Shown here piece by piece: positions 1,137-15,974 of a stretch of 64,000 nt of DNA. The first letter of the stretch is position 1. Every line of letters begins with the position of its first letter. The notes under the pieces are model-generated. The model saw only the letters and a program-made list of their open reading frames with translations, was not told the origin of the DNA and made no database searches. This DNA is from Lentisphaeria bacterium (lineage in GTDB: Bacteria; Verrucomicrobiota; Lentisphaeria; Victivallales; Victivallaceae), in the NCBI GenBank assembly GCA_017504435.1, contig JAFVRD010000010.1:1-64000 (forward strand), in the 5' to 3' direction. A program made the position numbers and the translations under genes.

Positions 1137-3425
1137 TTACGGTTGTGGATTCATTACGCCGAGGATCGCCACCGGGAACTCTTTGACTTCGGGTGCTTTC
1201 GCCCAGACTTTTTGATCCACTCCGAGGAAAGGACGGATCGGATTGCCGGATATACCGGTAAAAACCGCCTTGTCCGGAGCTGCTGCGGCATAAAACAATT
1301 CATTTCGGGTGTCTTTATTGGTGAATCGTGCCAAACCGCCTTCAATATACACTTTCCCGCCGGGAGCAGTTTGATGCAGCATCGAATATCCGCCTGCTTC
1401 TCCGCCGCCGCGCGGTGTGTGCATATAAACGTTGCCTCCGGCATTGTCCACCCAACGGAGATTGCCGCCAAGTTCCCAGATTTTAGTTTCTTTGGTCTTC
1501 AGATTGGTACGTTTGATACCTTTGGACACATAGGGAACAAAAAACGGTGCGCGCATCAGGCAAGTTCCTTTGCGGACAGTGAAAAACGCCTGATCATCCA
1601 TCCAGAAATTATTTGCCATCCAGCACATGACCACCTCATTGTTGGCACATTCGGTCAGCACTCCGCCGGAACCGTTCCAAAGTGAACCGGTCGCCTGGAA
1701 AAAGCAATTATTTTTACCGGTGGCAATAATGCTGTACGGAGAACTGTCATAAAAAAGACAGTCGTAAATACCGATCATACGGCTTTTGTCTCCCAGTTTG
1801 ACATTCAAAAAGCGTTTGCCGCAGTACATCATCAACGATGTGAAAATCACCGTTTCCGGATTCTCCGCAGTAAACAGGTCATAACCATCGCGTTTATCAC
1901 CGCGTATCACCGGCATGCCTTCGCCGCGCAGAGAGACGAAATCCGGCAATTTCACCGTGGATGCCAGCCGAACTCTGCCGGAAGGTATCACCAGCGTTTT
2001 GCGGGCTTTGGCAGCTGCCGCGAGAGCTTTGCTCAATGCTGCTGAATTATCTGTTTTATCATCACCTACCACCCCGAAATCAGCCGCAAAGATCTCCTCT
2101 GCCGGAGCCGGGATTGCTTCGGGCATTGCCGGAACACTGGCATGAAGCATGGGATCATCCGGATACACAAACCGTTTCATTACTTCCGGGATATTGGGGC
2201 GGATATTTTTATTACCGTGGACAATAATATTGTATTTGTGAGCCGTTGACCACGGAATACCCTGCAATTTACCTTGAAATGAGTTGCGTTCGAAATATTT
2301 CTGATCGGGATTCACCAGCCATTTTATCATCGGTACAGAGCCGTTGACATTGATATTATCGATCATTTTCAGTACACACGGAACGCGCCGCAATATGATC
2401 AACGCTTCCGGCGGACGCGGTGAATCAAAGGTACAGCGGTTGAATGTCACACTGCCGGGAATGGAGTGTCCGGGAACTTTACCGGTATTCTGATCCAATA
2501 CCGGCATGGGATTGACTGAACGGAATGTGGAATCGTTGCAGCTGAAGTGATAACCGATATTTTCAAACCAGAATTGTTTATTGGATGTGGCAGGAGCTTC
2601 AGCCTGCAAATTCCAGATCATCAGCATGTTGGGTGCCGGGCCGATCCCTTCGTGGATGATCGGTCCGACGGTGTCAGGATTGGCAACGATCCGGCAGTTG
2701 TCAAGCAAAGTACCGTCGTTGTTGAATTCAAAAGGATTGATGCAGTTGATGAATTCGCTTTTGCTGATATAAATGATATTGCTGGAAAACCATGATATCA
2801 ACTGCCTGATCGGCGGCGGAGTCAATACCGGGATGCCGTTTTTGATCGTGACTTCATGAGGCGGTATCTGAACAATGTTCTGCTGTCCCCAGCTTTTGCT
2901 GTAATCTTCGGGGGGAGCATAAAGCCGCATGGAAACACTCCGCACCGCCGGGGCGGATGAATCGCGGAACACACAGTTGCGGATATGTACCGAACTGGCA
3001 TTCCAGTTGCGGCTCCATAACTGGATCTGAGTCCGTCCGCCGACAAATTCGATGTTATTGAATATTGCTCTCCGGTAAATGCGGCAGTAAAGAATATCCT
3101 GTGTGAAGTCATCCATCACGATCCGGGTGCCTTTTTCACCGCGCCAGATCACTGAACCGTGGGCAAAAATCGTCCGGGATATTTTGTAAGTACCTTTCGG
3201 AAAAACAAGTTCATCCACATGAGTTTCGCTTGAACCTTTGTTCCAATCATCCTCCCGGCGGAAACGGTCAAGTTTGATCCGGCCGGCAAGATAAAACACC
3301 GCTTTCTGGATCGCCGCAGTATCATCGGTTCTGCCATCGCCGACAGCACCGAAATCCCGGACGTTGACGCCATGCACACTGCATATTGCGGCAAACAACA
3401 AGGTCAACAGCATTAATTTTTTCAT
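1137..3425 (-). CDS. Exported pectate-lyase-superfamily (right-handed beta-helix) protein
   Basis: 762 residues starting at ATG 3425, which has AAGGGA seven bases upstream. A longer frame from 3431 has no better start. The N-terminus MKKLMLLTLLFAAICSVHG is a clear signal peptide. Two copies of the pectate-lyase-3 opening motif are visible: DFGAVGDGRTDDTAAIQKAV directly after the signal, and DFGVVGDDKTDNSAALSKAL near residue 450. This suggests two beta-helix modules in tandem. The family includes polysaccharide lyases and hydrolases as well as catalytically silent helices, and I see no decisive catalytic set. Context (sialidase upstream, sugar isomerase downstream) supports a role in glycan breakdown outside the cytoplasm. 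Confidence 0.85.
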   Translation of the reverse strand: MKKLMLLTLLFAAICSVHGVNVRDFGAVGDGRTDDTAAIQKAVFYLAGRIKLDRFRREDDWNKGSSETHVDELVFPKGTYKISRTIFAHGSVIWRGEKGTRIVMDDFTQDILYCRIYRRAIFNNIEFVGGRTQIQLWSRNWNASSVHIRNCVFRDSSAPAVRSVSMRLYAPPEDYSKSWGQQNIVQIPPHEVTIKNGIPVLTPPPIRQLISWFSSNIIYISKSEFINCINPFEFNNDGTLLDNCRIVANPDTVGPIIHEGIGPAPNMLMIWNLQAEAPATSNKQFWFENIGYHFSCNDSTFRSVNPMPVLDQNTGKVPGHSIPGSVTFNRCTFDSPRPPEALIILRRVPCVLKMIDNINVNGSVPMIKWLVNPDQKYFERNSFQGKLQGIPWSTAHKYNIIVHGNKNIRPNIPEVMKRFVYPDDPMLHASVPAMPEAIPAPAEEIFAADFGVVGDDKTDNSAALSKALAAAAKARKTLVIPSGRVRLASTVKLPDFVSLRGEGMPVIRGDKRDGYDLFTAENPETVIFTSLMMYCGKRFLNVKLGDKSRMIGIYDCLFYDSSPYSIIATGKNNCFFQATGSLWNGSGGVLTECANNEVVMCWMANNFWMDDQAFFTVRKGTCLMRAPFFVPYVSKGIKRTNLKTKETKIWELGGNLRWVDNAGGNVYMHTPRGGGEAGGYSMLHQTAPGGKVYIEGGLARFTNKDTRNELFYAAAAPDKAVFTGISGNPIRPFLGVDQKVWAKAPEVKEFPVAILGVMNPQP

Positions 3426-3446
3426 TATCACATCCCTTTTTTTTGA

Positions 3447-4625
3447 TCAACGGTTTTTTTCGCGAATACTTTTTATTTTTATCAACAGCGGATCAAAAAC
3501 ATCTCTGATCCATTGAGCATCTGCCGCTTTGGCAGCTTCATAGCGTTCCATATCCTCCGGTACCGGAGCTTTGCTGATGATCCGGTGCAGATAAGAATTA
3601 TTATTGGTAATGCTTCCCTGTATGATATCTTCTTCAGTGATCTGCGCCATCACGATCTCTTTGCAGCTCATTCTGCCGTGGTCATAGACGATGTATATCG
3701 TTCCGTCATCGGCTTGAACTGCATCAGGATAAGATATGCCGTTGATGTGATTCTCCGCTTTGTCAAGCTGCAGAGAGTATTTCCATGTTTCACCGTCATC
3801 TTCGGAAAGTTTTGCGACCAGATCGGTACGGTAATTTGTGGAATCATTGTGAATGAGCAAAACTCTGCCGGATCGAAGCCGCCGGAGATATATTCTGCTG
3901 GTGGCATTGAGAGTGCGGGTATAAGTTCCGGGTGTCCATGAAGAGCCTTCCAGATCACTGGAAACGGTTTTGACCAGCAGCGGTTTGAGATCTCTTGCCA
4001 GCATCAGCAAAGTACCGTCCCGGCGTTCGAGGATCATAGTTTCGTCGAAATCCGGAGCAAGTTTTTTGCCCGCCTGACAGATAAACCACGTTTTGCCCTG
4101 ATCTTTGCTGCGGGAATAGCAGTAATTTTCAGTCGCCCAGTTATAGGAACACAATACCCAGTCGCCATTGGAAAGCACCGTCGGCTGAGTACGCAGGAAA
4201 CCAGGTGCGATATAACGCGGTTCACTCCATTGCAGCTCCTCCGCATCCGGATCATCGCAAATAAATGCCCAGAGTGCCAGATGTTCCAATTCGGTATCCG
4301 GCACATTCAGATACCGTTGGGTAATAAACATCCACATTCTGCCATTGGGATCAAGCCAGAGCTGGATGTCTATGGAAATAAAATTGTTTTCAGCTTCACT
4401 GGGAACGACCAGCAGCGGTTTGCTCCATGTCCATCCATTGTCAGAACTGGATATCAGCAAATTGTAATTTTCCGGAGACGGCTCTTTCGTCCCTCCGGAA
4501 TACCATCCGGCAAACAATTTTCCGCCGGGAGTCCGCAGGATCGTGGGACAGCCCTGCCAGTAACGGCTGGATAATTGATATTTCTCTCCCGGTTCCGGAA
4601 AAATATGAACAGGTGTCAACGGCAT
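3447..4625 (-). CDS. Sialidase (exo-alpha-sialidase family, BNR/Asp-box protein)
   Basis: 392 residues from ATG 4625, preceded by AAAGGAGG. The open frame extends to 4814 but that part covers the promoter, so the shorter start is chosen. Three Asp boxes of the form SxDxGxTW are visible: SSDNGWTW, SKDQGKTW and SEDDGETW. This is typical of the six-bladed propeller of bacterial and eukaryotic sialidases. The N-terminal CPTILRTPGG corresponds to the region of the first substrate-binding arginine. No signal peptide is evident, so it is either cytoplasmic or exported by another route. First gene of its operon. Related propellers act on other glycans, so sialic acid is likely but not proven. Confidence 0.8.
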   Translation of the reverse strand: MPLTPVHIFPEPGEKYQLSSRYWQGCPTILRTPGGKLFAGWYSGGTKEPSPENYNLLISSSDNGWTWSKPLLVVPSEAENNFISIDIQLWLDPNGRMWMFITQRYLNVPDTELEHLALWAFICDDPDAEELQWSEPRYIAPGFLRTQPTVLSNGDWVLCSYNWATENYCYSRSKDQGKTWFICQAGKKLAPDFDETMILERRDGTLLMLARDLKPLLVKTVSSDLEGSSWTPGTYTRTLNATSRIYLRRLRSGRVLLIHNDSTNYRTDLVAKLSEDDGETWKYSLQLDKAENHINGISYPDAVQADDGTIYIVYDHGRMSCKEIVMAQITEEDIIQGSITNNNSYLHRIISKAPVPEDMERYEAAKAADAQWIRDVFDPLLIKIKSIREKNR

Positions 4626-4668
4626 ACAACCTCCTTTGCGGTATTTTGCTGAACGACGATTTACAACC

Positions 4669-4715
4669 GGTATGGTTCCGGTATGTAATTTACCATTGTA
4701 CAAGGAGTTTGTCAA
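4669..4715 (-). promoter_or_regulatory. Promoter and operator of the sialidase operon
   Basis: On the minus strand, -35 TTGACA (4715-4710), a 17-bp spacer and -10 TAAATT (4692-4687). Just downstream are two exact direct repeats GGTATG (plus-strand reading) at 4669-4674 and 4680-4685, one helical turn (11 bp) apart. The spacer also contains the palindrome TTGTACAA (4696-4703). GGTATGTAATTTAC and TTTGTCAATAGG recur at the same spacing upstream of the GntR-type regulator near 62.09 kb, which points to shared regulation. Confidence 0.75.
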
Positions 4716-4868
4716 TAGGTGAAAATCACATTTCAGAATTTTTCTCCGCCTCTGTATTTCCGGTTTCCTCCCGCTTCGCCGCCGGAGAAGATGAATTTCT
4801 GATAAAATCATCATTAAACTGAATGTTTTTTATTTATCTTTTCCAAACAAAAACGGGACGTTTATCAA

Positions 4869-4897
4869 TTGAAAACGACCGGGAACGATGATATATT
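4869..4897 (+). promoter_or_regulatory. Promoter of the MATE gene
   Basis: TTGAAA (4869-4874), a 17-bp spacer, then TATATT (4892-4897), 38 bp before the start codon. Seen directly; strength and start point not known. Confidence 0.65.
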
Positions 4898-4934
4898 AGG
4901 CGGATAACTTTTAATACAGAAACATGGAGCAGTT

Positions 4935-6296
4935 ATGGCAGCGATCGTAAAAGATCTCAATCAGGGCAGTGTGGTAAAAACCATGCTGATCTTTGCCATG
5001 CCGCTGCTGGGCGCAAGCCTGATCCAAATGCTTTACAATACCGCTGATATGATCATTGTCGGCAAATTTGTCGGCAAAAACGGTTTGGGTGCGGTTTCGG
5101 TGGGCGGAGATGTTTTGCATTTCCTCTGTTTTGTGGCAATGGGATTTGCCAATGCCGGTCAGGTGATAATCTCTCAATACCTCGGCGCCGGAATGAAAGA
5201 AAAAATCGGCAGGATCATCGGAACACTCTTTACATTTCTGATCGTCACTGCTCTGGTTCTGGGAAGTGTGACGGTGATATTCCGGAATCAAGTGCTGGAT
5301 TGGATAAATACACCGCCGGAGGTCAGAGGTGAAACTGAAGAATATGTGGTGGTTTGTCTGGCAGGTCTGCTGTTTATATTCGGCTACAATGTCATCAGTG
5401 CCATTTTGCGGGGGATGGGAGATTCCAAACATCCGCTGATCTTTGTGGCAATCGCGGCGGTATTGAATGTTGTACTGGACATTTATTTTGTGGTAGTTTG
5501 CCATTGGGGGGTATTCGGAGTGGCACTTGCCACGGTGATAAGTCAGGCGGTCAGTTTCATATTTTCCATAATATTCCTCTGGTACCACCGTGATGAGTTC
5601 GGCTTTGACTTCAAGCCCAAAAGTTTTCTTATCGATCTTGAAGCTGTCAAGCCGCTGCTGGCATTGGGATTTCCCATGCTTTTGCAGAGCGCGTCCATAA
5701 GTTTTTCCATGCTTTTTGTCAACAGTTTTATCAACAGTTACGGTCTGATCGCCGCCGCCATGAACGGTATCGGCAACAAATTGGGCATGGTCATCAATAT
5801 CATCACCTTTTCGCTGGCATCGGCAGCATCTCCCATGATCGGACAGGCCATCGGAGCGCGGATGTACCGGAGAGTACCGAAAATCCTCGGTGTCTCTTTG
5901 TGGATAAACTGCCTGATCTCACTGATAATCGGAATATTCATCGTGATATTCCCGATGTGGGTATTCGGAATATTCACCAATGATGCTGACGTTCTGGATA
6001 TGGCATTGACTTATGTCCCGGTGATGCTGGTACTGCTGGCAGGAAGTGCGTTGCGCCCGCCGCTGAGTGCGCTGATCAACGGTTCCGGCAATTTCAAACT
6101 CAATCTGGCAGTGGGAATTCTGGACGGCGTGCTGATGCGTATCGGGCTGTCCGTGTTGCTGGGACTCACCTGTGGTTTTGGAGTATACGGATTCTGGTAC
6201 GGCCACGCGCTGGCGGGATTGACGCCGTTTTTTGTCGGTGCGGTCTACTTTATTTCCGGCAAATGGAAAACCCGGAAATATATTATCAAAGAATAA
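4935..6296 (+). CDS. MATE family efflux transporter
   Basis: 453 residues with about twelve hydrophobic segments. The opening MLIFAMPLLGASLIQMLYNT followed by ADMIIVGKFVG is characteristic of MATE exporters (NorM/DinF superfamily), and AILRGMGDSKHP is the usual loop motif after the sixth helix. These inner-membrane antiporters export cationic drugs or metabolites using Na+ or H+ gradients. It has its own promoter, stands alone between two minus-strand genes, and shows no obvious link to the neighbouring sugar operons. The substrate cannot be inferred. Confidence 0.93.
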   Translation: MAAIVKDLNQGSVVKTMLIFAMPLLGASLIQMLYNTADMIIVGKFVGKNGLGAVSVGGDVLHFLCFVAMGFANAGQVIISQYLGAGMKEKIGRIIGTLFTFLIVTALVLGSVTVIFRNQVLDWINTPPEVRGETEEYVVVCLAGLLFIFGYNVISAILRGMGDSKHPLIFVAIAAVLNVVLDIYFVVVCHWGVFGVALATVISQAVSFIFSIIFLWYHRDEFGFDFKPKSFLIDLEAVKPLLALGFPMLLQSASISFSMLFVNSFINSYGLIAAAMNGIGNKLGMVINIITFSLASAASPMIGQAIGARMYRRVPKILGVSLWINCLISLIIGIFIVIFPMWVFGIFTNDADVLDMALTYVPVMLVLLAGSALRPPLSALINGSGNFKLNLAVGILDGVLMRIGLSVLLGLTCGFGVYGFWYGHALAGLTPFFVGAVYFISGKWKTRKYIIKE

Positions 6297-6364: not shown

Positions 6365-7378
6365 TTATTCCTGAATGGAGAAACGCTGATTTGCCAAATC
6401 GACAACTTTTAATTTGCCGGTGGATTCTGCGGGGATGAAACGGGCAGGTATTTGCAAATGCTGCCGTGCCGCGCCCCGGATCTCGGTCAGAATCTGAGCG
6501 ATTGCCTGACGTACGGAATGTTCCGCATCCTCAAGAATGACTCCGCACAATGGGAAGTGCAGTGCCGCTGCCAAAGTCCATTCATTGAATATCCCCACGG
6601 TGTCCGGGATATTTCCGAGTTCACTGCATTTGTCCATATACATACGCATGGAGTATTTGCCGTACAGAATAACCGCTTCCGGCCGTTCGGCTGCCAATTC
6701 AGCAGCCTGACGGCAATCACTGTGAATACGGCATTCCGGGATTACCCCGTACTTTTTGCAGCTGGCATCAAATATCTCTGCAGAAAGCGCGTTGTCATAT
6801 TTTTTGCCTTTGAAAAGTGCCAGGATAATGCGCTTATGTCCCCGGTCAGCAAGATATTTTACCGCATCCGGCAAAGCCTGTTTATAGTCCGGTGAAGCAG
6901 ATGAAACCTCGTATTCACTGCGTCCGCACAGAGAAAAATAGGGAAATCCGCGCCCGGTCAATGAATTCATCATTGCCTCCGGCAGCTGTTCCGACGTACA
7001 CGAACCGATGATGCCCTCCACACCGGAAGATAGAAAAAACTCCATCGCATCGGCAGTCCGTTCCGGTGAAAAACGGACGATTTGCAGTGACGTTTTGTAG
7101 CCGGATCTCCCGGCAGCATCCATCGCGGTTTCCACCGATGCCGCCAGAAACTGGTCTGTTAATATATCCACCATGATCCCCAGCGTGCGGCTGCTCCCGC
7201 GCCGCAGTGACAGAGCCAGTTCACTGGGACGGTAGCCGTGCTCAGCTGCGATCCGGCGCACCCGGTCGGCACGTTCTTTGGCATCACACCGTTTGTCTTT
7301 GGTTACCCCGGACAGGGCACGTTCCGCGGTTTTTGCGGAAACTCCCGCCAGGCGGGCTATCTCTTTTATCGTGATCAT
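6365..7378 (-). CDS. LacI-family transcriptional regulator
   Basis: 337 residues. The N-terminal helix-turn-helix TIKEIARLAGVSAKTAERAL is followed by a hinge region (GYRPSELALSLRRGSSRTLG) and a periplasmic-binding-protein-like ligand domain, the standard LacI/GalR layout and length. It is divergent from the U32/QueG-like/glycosidase operon, with mirrored promoters sharing an 18-bp palindrome (7411-7428). It is therefore probably the local repressor and autoregulated. The effector is likely a sugar or a derivative, but its identity is unknown. Confidence 0.92.
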   Translation of the reverse strand: MITIKEIARLAGVSAKTAERALSGVTKDKRCDAKERADRVRRIAAEHGYRPSELALSLRRGSSRTLGIMVDILTDQFLAASVETAMDAAGRSGYKTSLQIVRFSPERTADAMEFFLSSGVEGIIGSCTSEQLPEAMMNSLTGRGFPYFSLCGRSEYEVSSASPDYKQALPDAVKYLADRGHKRIILALFKGKKYDNALSAEIFDASCKKYGVIPECRIHSDCRQAAELAAERPEAVILYGKYSMRMYMDKCSELGNIPDTVGIFNEWTLAAALHFPLCGVILEDAEHSVRQAIAQILTEIRGAARQHLQIPARFIPAESTGKLKVVDLANQRFSIQE

Positions 7379-7387
7379 AATGTATTA

Positions 7388-7451
7388 AATATAGCACTTT
7401 TTCAACTTTTTTTCAAGATTACTTGAAATAATTGACTTCAGAGGTTATATT
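7388..7451. promoter_or_regulatory. Mirrored divergent promoters around an 18-bp palindromic operator
   Basis: The palindrome TTTCAAG-ATTA-CTTGAAA occupies 7411-7428. Its left arm forms the minus-strand -35 TTGAAA (7416-7411) of the LacI gene, with -10 TATATT at 7393-7388. Its right arm forms the plus-strand -35 TTGAAA (7423-7428), with -10 TATATT at 7446-7451. Both spacers are 17 bp. A repressor bound here would cover both -35 boxes at once. Confidence 0.75.
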
Positions 7452-7524
7452 AAATAACTGTATGACGGAGACAGTTATCTGCCTCACCCTCTTTGCGCAG
7501 GAACATATCACAGGGACAACGATA

Positions 7525-8565
7525 ATGAAATTTCAAGTCGGTTATCAGAATGACCGCCGTTTTCTGGAATATCTGCTGGCGCATAAAGATGCAGTAGGTG
7601 AACTCTATTTCCCCTGGGAATCCTTTACGACCGGACGCGGGGTGACTTTGAGCCGGAATGACCAGAGGACTCTGGAAAATGATCTGCACACATTTTCGGA
7701 AGCGGGAGTGAAACTCTGTCTGCTGCTTAACGGAAATTGTTACGGCAGAGAGGCTCTTTCCCGTCAGTTTTTCCAGAAACTCGGAGATACTGTTGATTTC
7801 ATTGCCGGAGAATATAATCTTGCTTCAGTGACCACCGCTTCGCCCCTGATCGGCAAATTCATTCACCGTAATTTTCCGGATTTGGAGGTGCGCGCCTCAG
7901 TGAATATGGAGATCGGCACGCCGGAAGGAGTTGAATATCTGGCGGAACACTTTGACAGTTTTTATCTGAAACGCGAATACAACTATTCCCGGGACGTGAT
8001 CATCCGGATGCGGGATTTCTGCCGCGGATGCGGTAAAAAACTTTATATTCTTGCCAACAGCGGCTGTTTGAATTTCTGTTCAGCGCGTACTTTTCACGAC
8101 AATCTGGTCGCGCATCAGCATGAGATTGCCGCGATGGATAATGGATTTAAATTTCACGGGATCTGTTCGACTTACATGGATGATCCGGTCAAACGTACTG
8201 CATTGCTTGCCAAAAGCAATTTCATCCGCCCGGAAGATACGGTTTTGTATGAAGATCTCTGCGACGGTATGAAACTTGCCACCCGTACCAATTTCAAACC
8301 TTTCGCAGTGGCAAAGGCATATTTTGACGGCAGCTGGAACGGTAATCTGCTGGAATTGACCGAACCTGCCCATGCGGAAAAATTTCTCCCCGCTGTCGTT
8401 GCCAATAAAAAATTTCCGGCTGATTATGCCGAACACCGTTTCCAGTGCGGAAAAATATGTGAAAAATGCGATTACTGTGCCGGAGTGCTGGCTGCGGCAA
8501 CTGTCACTTTGAACGAAAACAATACTATTTTTTATAAACAAATACAGGAAGAAAAATCATGTTGA
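7525..8565 (+). CDS. Peptidase U32-like (COG0826-type) protein
   Basis: 346 residues from ATG 7525; the longer frame from 7432 runs through the promoter. The sequence NSGCLNFCSARTFHDN (residues 178-193) is the cysteine motif typical of U32-family proteins, and a dense C-terminal cluster CGKICEKCDYC (residues 308-318) adds four cysteines. Cys181, Cys185, Cys214 and the C-terminal group could hold an iron-sulfur cluster, as known for UbiU/UbiV and RlhA in this superfamily. Those proteins support oxygen-independent hydroxylation rather than proteolysis. It overlaps the next gene by 7 bp, so translation is coupled. Function here is unknown; a redox role is inferred from the three Fe-S neighbours. 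Confidence 0.75.
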   Translation: MKFQVGYQNDRRFLEYLLAHKDAVGELYFPWESFTTGRGVTLSRNDQRTLENDLHTFSEAGVKLCLLLNGNCYGREALSRQFFQKLGDTVDFIAGEYNLASVTTASPLIGKFIHRNFPDLEVRASVNMEIGTPEGVEYLAEHFDSFYLKREYNYSRDVIIRMRDFCRGCGKKLYILANSGCLNFCSARTFHDNLVAHQHEIAAMDNGFKFHGICSTYMDDPVKRTALLAKSNFIRPEDTVLYEDLCDGMKLATRTNFKPFAVAKAYFDGSWNGNLLELTEPAHAEKFLPAVVANKKFPADYAEHRFQCGKICEKCDYCAGVLAAATVTLNENNTIFYKQIQEEKSC

Positions 8566-9626
8566 CCAGTCAAATGATCAAGGAAGCGGCTCTCGCCGCC
8601 GGTGCCGATATGTGCGGTATCGGAGATATGAACCGCTTTGAAGGTGCGCCTCCGGAAATGGATCCCAGGTATATTTTCCCGGAAGCGAAATCAGTTATCG
8701 GGATGGTATTCCGGATCCCCCGCGGTGTCCAGCGCGGCATTGAAGAAGGTACTCAATTTTACCAGTACCCCTCCATGGCTTACGGCGGCATCAACGAAAT
8801 CTATGCTCCGGCGGTACTTTATCAGGTCGGACAGTTGATCGAAGACCACGGCTATGAAGCATTCATCTACCGTAACACCGGTGCGCGCGGCTGTGTTTCT
8901 GATATGGACGGTACTCCCGGCAACACCCTTTCTCCGGAAGAACAGATCGAAGCGATGAATCAAGCCAAGCGCAAAACCAACCATCACCGTTCGGTGCAAT
9001 TCACCCGTCCGGCACGTCCCGGTCAGATGCCGCCGGATCTGCAGTTTCAGTTCCGGCTGGCGGCAGTGGCGTGCGGTCTCGGCGAAATGGGGTGGAGCAA
9101 AATGTTTCTGACCAAAGACTTCGGTCCGTTGCAGCGGGTGGCATTCATCTTTACCGATGCGGAATTGGAAGCTGATCCGCTTTATGACGGCGAACCGCTC
9201 TGCCGCCGGTGCATGGCATGTGTCAGAGAGTGTCCCGGCGGCTGTCTCAGTGCCACTGAAAGTATCAAAGTCAACGTCGGTGGAAAAATTTGCGAATGGG
9301 GCAAACTTGATGAATGGAAATGCTACGCCTTTTACACTCACGGCGGCAGAAAATTCAATCCTTTCGTTCCCAAAGCCGTCTGGGATGAAAATGAAAACGG
9401 CGATCTCGATCTTCTGGAAGGTAAATGCGAAGCCAACGAAAAAGAGATCATGAAAGTTTACCGTGCGCTGGAAAAATATTTCCCGACCTGGGTCGGTTAC
9501 AATATGGCAAAATGCGGCGGCTGCATCCGGGCTTGTGTAAGCATGCTGGAGAAAAAAGGCGGCTGCATGCACGGACGCTTCAAAGAACCCCTGCGTACCG
9601 GTAAACCGTGGGTCATGGACCGTTGA
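8559..9626 (+). CDS. QueG-like iron-sulfur protein, paralog 1
   Basis: 355 residues, with AGGAAG upstream. It resembles the epoxyqueuosine reductase/reductive dehalogenase-like family: CGLGEMGWSKMFLTKDFGP followed by FIFTDAELEADP, then a ferredoxin motif CRRCMACVRECP (about residues 215-225) and a second cysteine group CGGCIRAC near residue 317. Family members use cobalamin and two [4Fe-4S] clusters for reductive chemistry. Compared with the next two genes it carries an insertion near residue 110-150. Three different paralogs side by side argue against a simple role in queuosine synthesis. Cytoplasmic, no signal peptide. Confidence 0.75.
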   Translation: MLTSQMIKEAALAAGADMCGIGDMNRFEGAPPEMDPRYIFPEAKSVIGMVFRIPRGVQRGIEEGTQFYQYPSMAYGGINEIYAPAVLYQVGQLIEDHGYEAFIYRNTGARGCVSDMDGTPGNTLSPEEQIEAMNQAKRKTNHHRSVQFTRPARPGQMPPDLQFQFRLAAVACGLGEMGWSKMFLTKDFGPLQRVAFIFTDAELEADPLYDGEPLCRRCMACVRECPGGCLSATESIKVNVGGKICEWGKLDEWKCYAFYTHGGRKFNPFVPKAVWDENENGDLDLLEGKCEANEKEIMKVYRALEKYFPTWVGYNMAKCGGCIRACVSMLEKKGGCMHGRFKEPLRTGKPWVMDR

Positions 9627-9647
9627 GATCAGGAGAAGGATGTAATT

Positions 9648-10553
9648 ATGATAAACGCTCAGATAATCAAGCAAAAAGCTCTGGAATACGGTGCCGCTGC
9701 AGTCGGCATCGGTGATATTGAGTTGTTCAACGGAGTCATCGCCCAGCGTGACCCCAAAATGATATTGCCCCATGCCAAATGTATTATCGGATTTCTTTTC
9801 CGGGTGCCGCGTGCATTGTACCGGACGATGGATAACGGTAATCAATTCATGCAGTATACTTCCGTCGGAGTCAAATATATTGATGAGGACTTAAGTGAAA
9901 TATTCCTGCTCAAAATGGGTGGATTGATCGAAAATGAGGGTTATGATGCCTGTCTGCAGCGCAATGTTTCCAACTTGCGTATAAAAGGCGATCACACCAC
10001 CAATCCCGAATTGGTGGATACTTATGAACTTGCCAATGCCGAACCGGTTGCACCGGGCAAACCTGCCCCGGAAATCATCATTGATTTCAATCTGGCGGCA
10101 AAGATCTGCGGTTTGGGAGATGTCGGCAAATCCGGTCATCTGATCGCGCCGAAACTCGGACCGTTTCTCCGGATGGCATTCATTATCACGGATGCTCCGT
10201 TGGAGTGTGATGCACCTTTTGGCGCGACCCTCTGTGATAATTGCGGCAAATGTGTGGACAGCTGTCCGGGACATGCGATTTCCGATGCCGGAACTGACAC
10301 CTGGCAGTGTGCCGTTTATTACCGGGGAGCGCATAAGAGCAATCCGTTCATGAAAGATGATTTTCTGGCCGGTGATCCGGAACGTGAAGCGATCATAAAC
10401 GGAGAAAAACGTTTCACCCGGGAATCCGCCCGTGAAATCTACAAGAAAATAAACTTCCTGCCCAGCCGTTCAACCGGATATATCCCGTGTATCTGCGGCA
10501 AAGCGTGTGATATGGCGTGTTACCGTCATCTGAAAGATAAAGGTGTCTTATGA
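9648..10553 (+). CDS. QueG-like iron-sulfur protein, paralog 2
   Basis: 301 residues. The N-terminal half (GIGDIELFNG, LPHAKCIIGFLFRVPRAL) parallels paralog 1. The core CGLGDVGKSGHLIAPKLGP precedes the ferredoxin motif CDNCGKCVDSCPGHA (about residue 195). The C-terminal group CICGKACDMAC is spaced differently from paralog 1, so the second cluster may have a different ligand set. Its last four bases overlap the start of paralog 3 (ATGA), indicating translational coupling. Substrate unknown. Confidence 0.75.
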   Translation: MINAQIIKQKALEYGAAAVGIGDIELFNGVIAQRDPKMILPHAKCIIGFLFRVPRALYRTMDNGNQFMQYTSVGVKYIDEDLSEIFLLKMGGLIENEGYDACLQRNVSNLRIKGDHTTNPELVDTYELANAEPVAPGKPAPEIIIDFNLAAKICGLGDVGKSGHLIAPKLGPFLRMAFIITDAPLECDAPFGATLCDNCGKCVDSCPGHAISDAGTDTWQCAVYYRGAHKSNPFMKDDFLAGDPEREAIINGEKRFTRESAREIYKKINFLPSRSTGYIPCICGKACDMACYRHLKDKGVL

Positions 10554-11485
10554 AAGAGCTTAAAGATAAACTTATTGCCGCATTGAAAAAAAGTGCCGCG
10601 GATATCGTCTGCTGCGGCAGTATCGACCGGATGAGCGATCCTGCGGTCAAAAAACTTTTTCCGGAAGCCAGAACGGTGATCTGTGTCGCGTTCCGTCAAT
10701 TGCGTGGAACCCGCCGCGGGGTGGAGGAAGGAACTGTTTTCTATCAGTATTCCACCGGAGTGGAAACTCTGGAGGAGGTCATGATCCCGGGCGCATTGCT
10801 CCGGGGATGTGCCGTTTTGGAAGAGGCGGGATTCGAGGCTCTGCCGCAACGCCGCATCCTGTTGGTTACCAACGATGAAAATGAGACTAATTTTGAAGTC
10901 GATCATACCGAAGTATTCCGCGGTAAAAAGGAGGAAACGCTGTTGAATTTTGAACAGTGTGCAGTGGACTGCGGTCTGGGCGAAATCGGTATGTCCGGTT
11001 CCGTTTTGACGGATGATTTCGGTCCCGGTCAGCGTTGGGGATTCATCATTACTGATGCTGAACTTCCTGCCGATGAAGTCGCGGCTCCCCATCTGTGCGA
11101 CCGCTGCGGAGAATGTGTCAAAGCCTGTCCCGGTCATGCTCTTGCCGCTGACGGCAAAAGAAATTCCTGGCAGTGTGCGGCGTATTACAAAGGAGCCAAC
11201 CGCACCCGCAATCCCTTTATGCCTCCGGATGCCTTTGCTGATGATCCGGAACGGCTGGCGATCATTGCCGGAGAAGCGGATCTTTCCCCGGAACGGGCGA
11301 AAGAAGTCATTAATCAGATCAACTTTTATCCGCCTAACAAACACGCATTTGTAGCCAGCATGTGCGGACGTGCCTGCGATACCGCATGCTATGTCCATCT
11401 GGAAGAAAAAGGGGTATTGAAACGTAAATTCAAAACCATGTTCCGCAAGCGTCCGGTTTGGAAACTTTCTCTGGAAGGAAAATGA
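10550..11485 (+). CDS. QueG-like iron-sulfur protein, paralog 3
   Basis: 311 residues. It has the same architecture: FPEARTVICVAFRQLRGTRR, the core CGLGEIGMSGSVLTDDFGP, the ferredoxin motif CDRCGECVKACPGHAL (about residue 183) and the C-terminal CGRACDTAC. It is closer to paralog 2 than to paralog 1 in this C-terminal spacing. Six bases separate it from the glycosidase-like fusion downstream. The strict colinearity of the three genes suggests that the products work together, for example as successive reductases or as a hetero-oligomer; this is inference. Confidence 0.75.
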   Translation: MKELKDKLIAALKKSAADIVCCGSIDRMSDPAVKKLFPEARTVICVAFRQLRGTRRGVEEGTVFYQYSTGVETLEEVMIPGALLRGCAVLEEAGFEALPQRRILLVTNDENETNFEVDHTEVFRGKKEETLLNFEQCAVDCGLGEIGMSGSVLTDDFGPGQRWGFIITDAELPADEVAAPHLCDRCGECVKACPGHALAADGKRNSWQCAAYYKGANRTRNPFMPPDAFADDPERLAIIAGEADLSPERAKEVINQINFYPPNKHAFVASMCGRACDTACYVHLEEKGVLKRKFKTMFRKRPVWKLSLEGK

Positions 11486-11491
11486 TCGATC

Positions 11492-14400
11492 ATGAAGCGT
11501 CCCGAAATCACTTGGAGTTTGATGCATCCCACTCCGCTGGATCCGGATTACGTCCGGATGCTGGTGGGAAAAGCCCGCGATTACCGGGTGGACAGTTTTG
11601 AGATTTGCGGTCAATGCCATACCCCTTACGGCGGATTGGACGGATTGATAAATTATCGTGAATATCCGTCCGCATTTGCCAGTTGGGATCAGAACATTGT
11701 CAGTGGGAATCAGCAGAAACTCAATGAGATCATGGCAGTAAGTCATGCTGCCGGCAAAGCAGTGTACCTCTGGCACCGGGAAGTGATGATTCCGCCGGGA
11801 CTGCTTCAGGATATTCCGGAATTGCTGGATGAAAACGGTGAATTTGATTTGACCGGAGCGGCATTCGCCGATTTGATCCGTTACAAACTGGAACAAACCT
11901 TTATTGCCGTACCGGAATTGGATGGGGTGGTGCTGACTCTGACCGAAGCGGACTTTTCCGCCATCCACAATTCCAATACCGAAAAATATCCTCCGGTGGA
12001 GGTGGTACGCTTCATCATCGAAATCTTTGCATCTGAATTGGAGAAACGCGGTAAACGTTTTATTATGCGTTCTTTCGGTTCGATCGCTCAGGATTATGAG
12101 GATATTCTTGCCGGAGCGGAAAAACTGGCGGGGAAACACCATTTTGAAATCGAAACCAAAATAACCCCTTATGATTTTGACCCGTTCCTGCCCATGAACC
12201 CGTTTTTGCGGAAGAGCCCGAATTTCACTCTTTCTGCGGAGTGTGAAACTACCGGAGAATTCATGGGACAGGGCAATATGCCTTTTGAGCATGTTGACCA
12301 CATTGTCCGTTATGTCCGGGAGGGACAGGCGGCAGATGTGGATCGTTATGTGATCCGCATTGACCGGCGCGGCAACTGTATTTTTGATATTTACGAATTG
12401 AACTACTATGCCTATGACCGGGCACTGGCTGATGAAAATATCACTGCTGATGAGATCCGCCGGGAGTGGTATGATAAAAATTATCCGCCGCAATTCCGCG
12501 ATGCATTCATCAAATTGGATAAAATCGGCTGGGAAATGGTCTGCAAAACCTATTTCATTGACAAACATGTGCTGTTTCACGGCAATTACTCGATGAAATA
12601 TCTTAAAGCCGGATTTGTGTTTGCGCTCTTTGCCGAGGGCAGACGCACGTTGAAAAACGGCAGCGGCATCTGGTCGATTTTGACTGACCGTATGACTCCG
12701 GGCCGGGGAGAGATCCTGGAAGAAAAAATCCGGGCGGTAACACTGGCTGATCAAGGACTTGCATTGTTAAAAAGTCTGAATGTCCCGGCTGATGATTTCC
12801 GGCACCGGCTCTGGAAAAATGCGCCCATCATCACCCGGGCAGTGCTGGAATTGACCAAGTGCATCATCTGTTATTGTGATGATATGGAGTGGGAAAAATC
12901 TGACTTCCCTCATCTCAAAGCTCAGGTGGCAGCTTCGATGCAGGAATTTGAACGTCTCGCCGGGCATAAGGTTGAGATCATCAAACGTGATGTCATCAAT
13001 GGTTTGGAACACCGGTTGACGGAATACCGCCGCTCCATTGAAGAAATTTGTATTGAACCGCTGGCGGCGATCTGCCAGGAACTCCTGAAAGAATTTCCGG
13101 CGGAATATAACGCCAGAGAGAAATTTCTGACCGGTTGTGAAGACGGCATTATCACCGGAGGCATCTCCGATGACTGGCGTATCGTCCGTTACATGCATGC
13201 CTCTCATGCGTTTTTGCACAACGGTTTGCCGGCACGCTGGGCTGGCAATCGGGTATTCCCCAACGGTTTTATGGAAATGGAGCTCAAACGCGGTGATGAA
13301 TTGCTCATTCACGGAGCGATCGAAGATACCCGGAAATTCACCCTGGTTTGTGACGGAGAACGTATTGAAGCTGAATTTGACGACAATGGGGTGTTCTCCA
13401 TGCCGTTGCCGAAATCAGATCGCCCGGTGTCGATCCGTTTGGAAAAAAACGGAGTTTGCTATCCGCTGTTTCATGCTGTTTTGACCCGTAATCACGACTG
13501 GCATACCAAAAAAAAACTTCCGCTGTTTTCATGGCGTGAAGATATAATGCCCCGGGAATCGGTGCCTGAACCGGTTTATGATGAAAAAAGTGAGCTGCTG
13601 GAATTTTATTATACAGCATGGCAATCGGCATGGACTCACATTTTTACTTGCCGCGGCGCACCGGTTTCCCCGTATATGAATGAGGGGATACGCATCAACC
13701 GTATCTGGATATGGGATACCTGCTTTATGGTGCAATTCTGCCGTTATGCGGCAGATGTATTCCCCGGCATCCAGAGTCTGGATAATTTTTACCGGGTGAT
13801 CCATGACGGAGAAAGTATGGTGCTGAAAGTCCATATTCCTGACAATCCGCCGCTGTTTGCATGGACGGAATATGAATACTTCAAGCACACCGGTGATGTT
13901 GAACGGGTGAAAAAACTCCTGCTGGAGACCCGGTATTTGCAGAAACATTATCACTGGCTCAATTCGTTATCTGCCGGTCAACTTTTTGACTATGCCACCA
14001 GCGTGACCGGAGCAGAATTTGTGTCCGGCAAAGGTTTCAAATGGCACGGCGGAAAAGCCGGCATGGATAATACTCCGCGCGGTGATGATGATTATGCTTC
14101 GATATATTATGTCGACCTTTCCTGCCAGCAGGCATTGAGCGCATTGTACATTTCCCGGCTTGCTGAAGCGATCGGAGAAAATGCGTTGGCAGCACAGTGG
14201 CATGAGGAATATGAAAAGCAGAAACAGTTTGTCAATGACCGCTTCTGGTCCGAAAAAGATCAGCTTTATCTCGACCGTTTCATTGATGAAAGCGGTTTCT
14301 GCAAATTGCTCACTCCTGCATCATTGTGGCCGCTGCTGGCAGAAGTCGCTGAACCGCATCAGGTCAAGGCACTGGCAGATGCCGTTGCCGACCCGAACCG

Positions 14401-14962
14401 GCTCGGTGGCACCAGACCCATACCCAGTGTAAGCCGGGATGATCACCGTTTTTCTCCGGTCGGGACCTACTGGCGCGGCGGGATCTGGATGCCCAAAGTA
14501 TACATGACCGTCAAAGGTCTGGAGAAAAATGGACAGTACGCTCTTGCTGATGAAGTGGCGCGTAATATGCTGCTTTTACAATACCGGACCTGGAAAGATT
14601 TTGAACCGCATACGATCTGGGAATGCTATTCTCCGACAGAGGACAAGCCTGCCACGAATAAAATCGGCGGTTATTCGCGTCCGGATTTCTGCGGCTGGTC
14701 GGCATTGGGTCCGATTTCGCTTTTCATTGAAAACGTACTTGGCATCCGGGAAGTCAACGCATTGGAAAAACGCATCGTCTGGGAACCGTCATCCGGCAAA
14801 CGCAACGGTATAAAAAATCTCAAAATGGGCGGTAAAAATTTCACCCTGATCGCATATCCGGAACGCGGAGAAGCTGAAATTTCTGCGGCGGCAGATTTTG
14901 TACTGCAGCTCAACGGCAGAAATATTCCTCTGACAGCCGGAAATCACACGGTGAAACTGTAA
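11492..14962 (+). CDS. Two-part glycoside hydrolase-like fusion with GH63/GH37-type C-terminal barrel
   Basis: 1156 residues, no signal peptide, so probably cytoplasmic. The C-terminal half (about 640-1130) carries the landmarks of MGH1/GH63-like (alpha/alpha)6 glycosidases: WIWDTCF (about 742), GMDNTPRG (about 856, where the catalytic acid lies in the family motif), YWRGGIW (about 993), WECYSPT (about 1043, general-base region) and GWSALGP (about 1068). The N-terminal half (about 1-560) looks like a TIM barrel, possibly alpha-glucuronidase-like, with VVLTLTEADF as a candidate strand end; that call is weak. Last gene of the LacI-controlled operon. Two glycosidase-like halves in one chain may act sequentially on one oligosaccharide. 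Confidence 0.75.
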   Translation: MKRPEITWSLMHPTPLDPDYVRMLVGKARDYRVDSFEICGQCHTPYGGLDGLINYREYPSAFASWDQNIVSGNQQKLNEIMAVSHAAGKAVYLWHREVMIPPGLLQDIPELLDENGEFDLTGAAFADLIRYKLEQTFIAVPELDGVVLTLTEADFSAIHNSNTEKYPPVEVVRFIIEIFASELEKRGKRFIMRSFGSIAQDYEDILAGAEKLAGKHHFEIETKITPYDFDPFLPMNPFLRKSPNFTLSAECETTGEFMGQGNMPFEHVDHIVRYVREGQAADVDRYVIRIDRRGNCIFDIYELNYYAYDRALADENITADEIRREWYDKNYPPQFRDAFIKLDKIGWEMVCKTYFIDKHVLFHGNYSMKYLKAGFVFALFAEGRRTLKNGSGIWSILTDRMTPGRGEILEEKIRAVTLADQGLALLKSLNVPADDFRHRLWKNAPIITRAVLELTKCIICYCDDMEWEKSDFPHLKAQVAASMQEFERLAGHKVEIIKRDVINGLEHRLTEYRRSIEEICIEPLAAICQELLKEFPAEYNAREKFLTGCEDGIITGGISDDWRIVRYMHASHAFLHNGLPARWAGNRVFPNGFMEMELKRGDELLIHGAIEDTRKFTLVCDGERIEAEFDDNGVFSMPLPKSDRPVSIRLEKNGVCYPLFHAVLTRNHDWHTKKKLPLFSWREDIMPRESVPEPVYDEKSELLEFYYTAWQSAWTHIFTCRGAPVSPYMNEGIRINRIWIWDTCFMVQFCRYAADVFPGIQSLDNFYRVIHDGESMVLKVHIPDNPPLFAWTEYEYFKHTGDVERVKKLLLETRYLQKHYHWLNSLSAGQLFDYATSVTGAEFVSGKGFKWHGGKAGMDNTPRGDDDYASIYYVDLSCQQALSALYISRLAEAIGENALAAQWHEEYEKQKQFVNDRFWSEKDQLYLDRFIDESGFCKLLTPASLWPLLAEVAEPHQVKALADAVADPNRLGGTRPIPSVSRDDHRFSPVGTYWRGGIWMPKVYMTVKGLEKNGQYALADEVARNMLLLQYRTWKDFEPHTIWECYSPTEDKPATNKIGGYSRPDFCGWSALGPISLFIENVLGIREVNALEKRIVWEPSSGKRNGIKNLKMGGKNFTLIAYPERGEAEISAAADFVLQLNGRNIPLTAGNHTVKL

Positions 14963-15254: not shown

Positions 15255-15835
15255 AAAACCGTTTGATATTTCGCAGACTTGGACGGGACTTGACGGAATG
15301 AGCGCAGCGAATGAGTGCCTGAATAAAATGGATGCAACCCGTCAAAAAAGTTCCGTCCCGGAGACAAAATAAAACCGTTTGATATTTCGCAGAGTTGGAC
15401 GGGATTTGACGGAATGAGCGCAGCGAATGAGTGCCTGAATGAAATGAAGGCAACCCGTCAAAAAAGTTCCGTCCCGGAGACAAAATAAAACCGTTTGATA
15501 TTTCGCAGAGTTGGACGGGACTTGACGGAATGAGCGCAGCGAATGAGTGCCTGAATGAAATGAAGGCAACCCGTCAAAAAAAGTTCCGTCCCGGAGACAG
15601 AATAAAACCGTTTGATATTTCGCAGAGTTGGACGGGACTTGACGGAATGAGCGCAGCGAATGAGTGCCTGAATAAAATGAAGGCAACCCGTCAAAAAAGT
15701 TCCGTCCCGGAGACAGAATAAAACCGTTTGATATTTCGCAGACTTGGACGGGACTTGACGGAATGAGCGCAGCGAATGAGTGCCTGAATGAAATGAAGGC
15801 AACCCGTCAAAAAAGTTCCGTCCCGGAGACAAAAT
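15255..15835. repeat. Five tandem repeats of 116-117 bp
   Basis: Units start at 15255, 15371, 15487, 15604 and 15720, each opening with AAAACCGTTTGATATTTCGC. Four are 116 bp and one is 117 bp (an extra A in the A-run). Units differ at only a few positions. Each contains GGACGGGACTTGACGG and, about 60 bp on, CCGTCAAAAAAGTTCCGTCC, which can form an imperfect hairpin. Unit length is not a multiple of three and the overlapping frames change from unit to unit, so these are not protein repeats. The 13-mer GGACGGGACTTGA is shared exactly with the T-arm/acceptor part of the adjacent tRNA-Leu gene. Confidence 0.9.
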
Positions 15836-15852
15836 AAAAAATTTTTTTATTT

Positions 15853-15936
15853 TGGTATCCGGGACGGGACTTGAACCCGTACGCCTTGCGGCACAAGATT
15901 TTAAGTCTCGTGTGTCTGCCATTCCACCACCCGGAC
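15853..15936 (-). tRNA. tRNA-Leu (anticodon UAA)
   Basis: An 84-nt class II tRNA with CCA encoded. Acceptor arm GTCCGGG/CCCGGAT (G-U first pair) and discriminator A. The anticodon loop CTTAAAA sits in the stem CGAGA/TCTTG. It has a variable arm, and the T-arm ACGGGTTCAAGTCCCGT. It reads UUA/UUG leucine codons. The AT-rich palindrome at about 15831-15852 follows directly and may end transcription; beyond it lie the tandem repeats, in the same direction. Confidence 0.95.
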
Positions 15937-15945
15937 GCCGTTCAT

Positions 15946-15974
15946 AATATAGTTCCATTTTGCAGTAAAATCAA
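15946..15974 (-). promoter_or_regulatory. Promoter of tRNA-Leu
   Basis: TTGATT (15974-15969), a 17-bp spacer, TATATT (15951-15946), ten bases before the tRNA 5' end. Confidence 0.65.

Follow-up and report, generated by a model that had tools for sequence, protein, structure and literature searches.

To our knowledge, two types of reaction, dehalogenation and the reduction of epoxides, are established for the superfamily of QueG and RdhA, and U32 proteins count among the main known routes to hydroxylation without O2. QueG carries a DYH motif with the catalytic Tyr and Asp and has been produced in Bacillus megaterium (PMC4646009).

We analyzed a 64,000-nucleotide stretch of a Lentisphaeria genome (the window; genome size 2.26 Mb, 95% complete) in which the gene for a U32-like protein is followed by three genes for QueG/RdhA-type proteins, here called Q1, Q2 and Q3. 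We propose, at odds of about one in two, that these four genes form a horizontally spread, substrate-induced and probably cobamide-dependent reductive module that works together with a U32 Fe-S protein on a carbohydrate-associated substrate in anaerobes. A limited search of the open-access literature found no paper describing the U32-Q1-Q2-Q3 unit, none joining “peptidase U32” with “epoxyqueuosine reductase”, and none with “QueG-like” or “DUF5696”.

A conserved four-gene unit and its two-gene version

The module spans positions 7525–11485 of the plus strand and consists of the U32-like, putative Fe-S protein P0001 (7525–8565, 346 aa), Q1 (P0002, 8559–9626, 355 aa), Q2 (P0003, 9648–10553, 301 aa) and Q3 (P0004, 10550–11485, 311 aa). 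It is followed on the same strand by P0005 (11492–14962). The sequence-only reading had described a tightly packed operon of five plus-strand genes; all five are present, and the junctions are as described: a 7-bp overlap (U32/Q1), a 21-bp gap (Q1/Q2), a 4-bp overlap (Q2/Q3) and a 6-bp gap (Q3/P0005). The conserved unit, however, has four genes, or two in a shorter version, and P0005 is an optional partner. Upstream of the module, positions 1137–6296 encode, as assigned by eye, a pectate-lyase-type protein, a sialidase-type protein and a MATE-type transporter. At 15342–15958, beside a tRNA-Leu gene (15853–15936), a short sequence is repeated several times and shows as a repeated peptide in the ORF translation.

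A scan for relatives of Q1, in which each species was represented by one genome, gave 174, of which the best 80 loci were examined, with genes in the other genomes called by a simple script. The complete U32-Q1-Q2-Q3 order is present in 68 of these 80 loci, which is far more than chance; among the other 12, one has the genes in a different arrangement and most are cut off by a contig edge, while four non-edge loci have no adjacent U32 gene (L110, L112, L122 and L135). L110, which carries Q1-Q2-Q3, is from Oligosphaera ethanolica DSM 24202. The genes might have proved not to be conserved together in any relative; instead, the same order recurs across Lentisphaerota, Verrucomicrobiota, Planctomycetota and Clostridia. 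Hosts among the best 80 include Lentisphaerota (with the cultured Oligosphaera ethanolica), Verrucomicrobiota of the Opitutales, Planctomycetia, a record titled Kiritimatiellae and, on the clostridial side, Lachnospiraceae, Oscillospiraceae and Christensenella; many of the 80 loci come from herbivore guts. Identity to the window proteins in this set is 75–94% for Q1, 53–84% for Q2, 48–89% for Q3 and 42–66% for U32; the best conserved of the four is Q1 rather than U32. One clostridial locus, L149, has a radical SAM/SPASM gene (9057–9980) between U32 and Q1; its similarity is to TIGR04317, a family of tungsten-cofactor maturases (238 bits, cut-off 380).

Within the order, close Q2 orthologs occur in 28 of 137 genomes, almost always next to Q1 and Q3 and also adjoining U32 wherever the contig extends far enough; the four genes are inherited together. 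In the tree, Q1, Q2 and Q3 form three clades with 100% support, each spanning phyla, and the set was therefore formed once, before it spread. Q1 groups with single-copy relatives, and Q2 with Q3. In one genome (G039, loci L058/L111) Q2 and Q3 are fused in one reading frame, which hints at a complex.

The association of Q and U32 genes also exists in a smaller form. A Q-family match lies within 4 kb of 66 of the 71 best U32-family matches in the order. In three genomes (G096, G107 and G114), a single Q1-like gene (37% identical) and a U32 gene (42%) stand where the window has the tetrad, flanked by the window-type LacI (63%) and by the P0005 N-domain (66%), here a separate gene of 665–672 aa. 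Since this domain stands as a gene of its own in the pair genomes, P0005 is a fusion; and since the pair replaces the tetrad between the same LacI and N-domain, pair and tetrad are interchangeable in one operon and probably do equivalent jobs.

Regulation and carbohydrate context

Translation of the U32 gene has its conserved start at the ATG at 7525, and the promoter lies within 7411–7524. The LacI-family regulator gene (6365–7378, minus strand), recognized as an ORF with LacI-family NCBIfam matches, is divergent from the module, in line with the sequence-only reading of a LacI-controlled operon; its orthologs are 57–61% identical beside several tetrads and 63% identical beside the three Q+U32 pairs. 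The intergenic region holds a TCAAG-N4-CTTGA dyad, a sigma70-type promoter and the element TAACTGTATnACGGAGACAGTTA. The dyad, TCAAG-ATTA-CTTGA (7413–7426), is an inverted repeat seen directly and a candidate LacI operator; a similar dyad occurs in locus L037. The predicted promoter, read from the sequence, is TTGAAA – 17 bp – TATATT (7423–7451, plus strand), and comparable promoters lie at the same place in related loci. The module-specific promoter element TAACTGTATGACGGAGACAGTTA (7455–7477, plus strand) is the sole match in the window, with 0 expected. Searched for in 137 genomes, its exact core, TATNNCGRAGACAGTTA, has nine matches; every one lies upstream of a U32/Q unit, in eight cases a tetrad and in one a pair, compared with four scattered matches for the reversed pattern used as a control. 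Two weaker matches, in G092 and G108, fall within or next to unrelated genes and were ascribed to chance. A comparison of the element with Rfam gave no meaningful match to a known RNA family, and an RNA hairpin is unlikely, because the two element types differ in one arm with no compensating change in the other, and because the element and the predicted start site overlap.

In Clostridia, a divergent AraC gene takes the place of LacI, and the AraC cluster spans 35 of the loci examined. An element of the 7455–7477 type was not found in Clostridia; GTTTGTTTT repeats occur there instead, recurring upstream of U32 in loci L117–L161 (the 9-mer in 17 of 40), and are likely AraC sites.

P0005 had been read as a two-part glycosidase-like fusion. 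This holds for its C-terminal half, which is MGH1/GH63/trehalase-like (PF22422, 110.1 bits, cut-off 27). The N-terminal half, of about 665 aa, has no significant match to a known family in PDB or Pfam; a GH67-C hint (E 0.056) was set aside. Fusion to this domain, and presence with the module in close relatives only, distinguish P0005 from known MGH1-like, GH63 and trehalase glycosidases. Module neighbors vary between loci and include MGH1-like, DUF5696 (GH129/GH101-like), DUF4838, heparinase-like, GH3, GH28 and GH116 proteins, as well as a Gfo/Idh/MocA protein nearest DgpA and a small gene that looks cupin-like by eye. No one glycosidase is found with the module throughout, and several operons in Clostridia hold nothing but the four module genes. 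The earlier suggestion of a sugar-linked pathway thus retains the carbohydrate-type regulators and many of the neighbors in its favor, but the host genomes are glycosidase-rich anyway, and a link between module and carbohydrates is therefore plausible rather than demonstrated.

Relationship of the module proteins to QueG, RdhA and U32 proteins

The motif CxxCxxCxxxCP is found in all of Q1, Q2 and Q3, and the QueG/RdhA-like core ascribed to the three paralogs is borne out by profile and predicted fold. Scores against the NCBIfam models are 38, 58 and 37 bits (Q1, Q2, Q3) for TIGR02486 (RDH; cut-off 160) and 24, 46 and 40 bits for TIGR00276 (QueG; cut-off 200), so far under the curated cut-offs that true RdhA or QueG membership was rejected. 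Against PDB, the Q-family profile matches RdhA best (2e-19; PDB 8q4h, 4uqu and 4ras), with QueG next (5d08 and 5d6s), and profile–profile comparison of the Q family with QueG gives 99%. The predicted Q1 model, of moderate quality (pLDDT 79, TM about 0.45), has RdhA, which heads the list, and QueG as its only matches at E<=0.001; the matches that follow are CblD and MMACHC, human chaperones of B12. Predicted fold and cysteine motif together correspond to class III, a nitroreductase-like B12-binding fold with a ferredoxin domain. Based on the sub-cut-off matches, the profile comparison and the Q1 fold, Q1–Q3 are, as judged from sequence and model, diverged members of the cobamide/4Fe-4S reductase superfamily, and their chemistry is probably reductive and of the Fe-S/corrinoid type, as had been supposed.

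With QueG, Q1–Q3 share the core and ferredoxin-domain profile and the predicted superfamily fold, but the C-terminal helical repeat domain of QueG was not found in them, nor was its DYH motif in the aligned region, a result that depends on the alignment. They also differ from QueG in being three tandem paralogs accompanied by a U32 protein, in a genome that uses QueH. From RdhA they are set apart by the sugar-type regulators, the constant U32 partner and perhaps the residue equivalent to the active-site Tyr246 of PceA, which in a gap-free, GYxA-anchored alignment is Glu in 80/80 Q1, 77/77 Q2 and 35/35 scored Q3 sequences; the assignment depends on this alignment, since HMMER puts Tyr246 two residues off the invariant Glu. 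In the single-copy relatives, the residue at this position (Glu80 in Q1) varies, as read by eye.

The U32 assignment of P0001, also made by the sequence-only reading, is weak by sequence and is supported by the predicted fold. P0001 scores 13.7 bits against PF01136, under the gathering score of 22.4, and of 19 members, 3 have a match to this model at E<=0.01. Its model (pLDDT 88) has a clear best PDB fold match in archaeal Mk0906 (E 1.8e-10, TM 0.69 by target length), with which it has a TIM-barrel-type fold in common; as far as the model can be relied upon, P0001 is of U32 type and remote by sequence. Its conserved RASVN and KRE-type segments align with E. coli U32 proteins. The five Cys residues invariant across 19 U32-like sequences, however, are spaced unlike those of the E. 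coli U32 proteins, and P0001 further differs from known U32 proteins in its constant association with QueG/RdhA-type proteins. Genomes G043–G055 (genus g47) carry up to five tandem U32-family copies each, more distant from the window U32.

All characterized U32 proteins in our comparison set have RNA or ubiquinone as their substrate, and the substrate of QueG is tRNA. By analogy with TrhP/RlhA/UbiUV and QueG, the module could therefore serve RNA modification or cofactor synthesis, U32 hydroxylating and the Q proteins reducing a nucleoside or quinone, and a conservation of Q1 as strong as that of housekeeping enzymes would suit such a role. We nevertheless consider it improbable: the patchy presence of close Q2 orthologs in the order and the spread between phyla fit an inducible catabolic unit better, the module adjoins sugar-type regulators and is interchangeable with the pair in an operon of LacI/glycosidase type, and queuosine is already covered. 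The window genome has QueH (155.7 bits) and no TIGR00276 match over the cut-off, on which grounds queuosine synthesis by Q1–Q3, doubted from the outset, was rejected. Across the order, QueH and QueG-like proteins look complementary; the window genus carries QueH, and several lineages without it have higher-scoring QueG-like proteins (80–180 bits, under the cut-off). A QueG-like protein in these genomes is not necessarily an epoxyqueuosine reductase, QueH being the likely enzyme here.

Cobamide supply and proposed function

CobS is absent from the window genome, which therefore probably imports cobamides. A cobamide-free host was rejected: the genome has a BtuF-like gene, an AdoCbl-riboswitch-like match and a B12-binding-domain protein, the latter as its sole PF02310 match (G000:C29:13038-13343) in a frame of about 800 aa, possibly a short MetH; most genomes of the genus have the match in such a frame. 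The inability to complete cobamide synthesis and the Glu found at the position of the catalytic Tyr of PceA in the gap-free alignment would be compatible with Q proteins that no longer hold a corrinoid and instead serve U32 as Fe-S electron carriers or as a scaffold; U32 would then do the chemistry. We judge this unlikely, as the Q1 model keeps the B12-binding-type fold and Q1 rather than U32 is the member under strongest conservation.

An MFS transporter gene is divergent from the BtuF-like gene in both the window genome and G115; in the window genome the riboswitch-like match (35.9 bits, gathering score 50) lies between the two. In G115 the module element, with two mismatches, sits 42 nt before the MFS gene, whose product is a homolog (41–47%) of the module-associated MFS in four Opitutales/Planctomycetia loci, and in G101 a member of this MFS family lies directly behind a strong cobalamin riboswitch (64.8 bits). 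This genomic context makes corrinoid use by Q1–Q3 more likely. In two genomes (L224:4477-7860 and L184:4771-8182), a BtuF-like gene is divergent from an MFS gene and an M42-type peptidase follows; the MFS protein there may be an uncharacterised corrinoid transporter.

The element before an MFS gene that adjoins a BtuF-like gene, the riboswitch before its homolog, the missing CobS and the CblD and MMACHC fold matches would also suit a module for corrinoid handling or the reactivation of corrinoid proteins (cobamide reduction, remodelling or salvage) in place of a catabolic reductase. We assign this a low probability: the matches to RdhA and QueG are much the stronger ones and extend over the 4Fe-4S domain, regulators of sugar type and glycosidase partners are out of keeping with it, and the B12-binding-domain protein, present in 32 of the 34 genomes of the genus, has a much wider distribution than the tetrad.

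For the substrate-induced reductive module that we favor, we infer a cobamide cofactor, a single complex, a carbohydrate-linked substrate and the following course of reaction. LacI in the window, or AraC in Clostridia, would activate the module when a carbohydrate-related inducer is present, and lineage-specific glycosidases and transporters would free or import the substrate. Q1, Q2 and Q3 would most likely be subunits of a single reductase, the main corrinoid site lying in Q1, with Q2 and Q3 passing on electrons or holding further sites. The U32-like Fe-S protein would act on the same substrate or intermediate as the Q complex, in analogy to the O2-independent oxygen transfer of UbiU/UbiV, TrhP and RlhA.

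More tentatively, the locus may represent an anaerobic pathway not described before. In it, a U32 protein active in oxygen transfer and a cobamide/Fe-S reductase of three subunits would together catalyze a novel reaction whose substrates are sugars or glycoside aglycones, and gene transfer would have spread the pathway among gut Lentisphaerota, Planctomycetota, Verrucomicrobiota and Clostridia; as a whole, we hold this more specific proposal to be doubtful. The U32-Q1-Q2-Q3 unit is in any case a testable candidate for new oxygen-free chemistry, and offers a direct handle on such chemistry in herbivore gut bacteria. If confirmed, it would give the QueG/RdhA superfamily a third role and U32 proteins a catabolic one.
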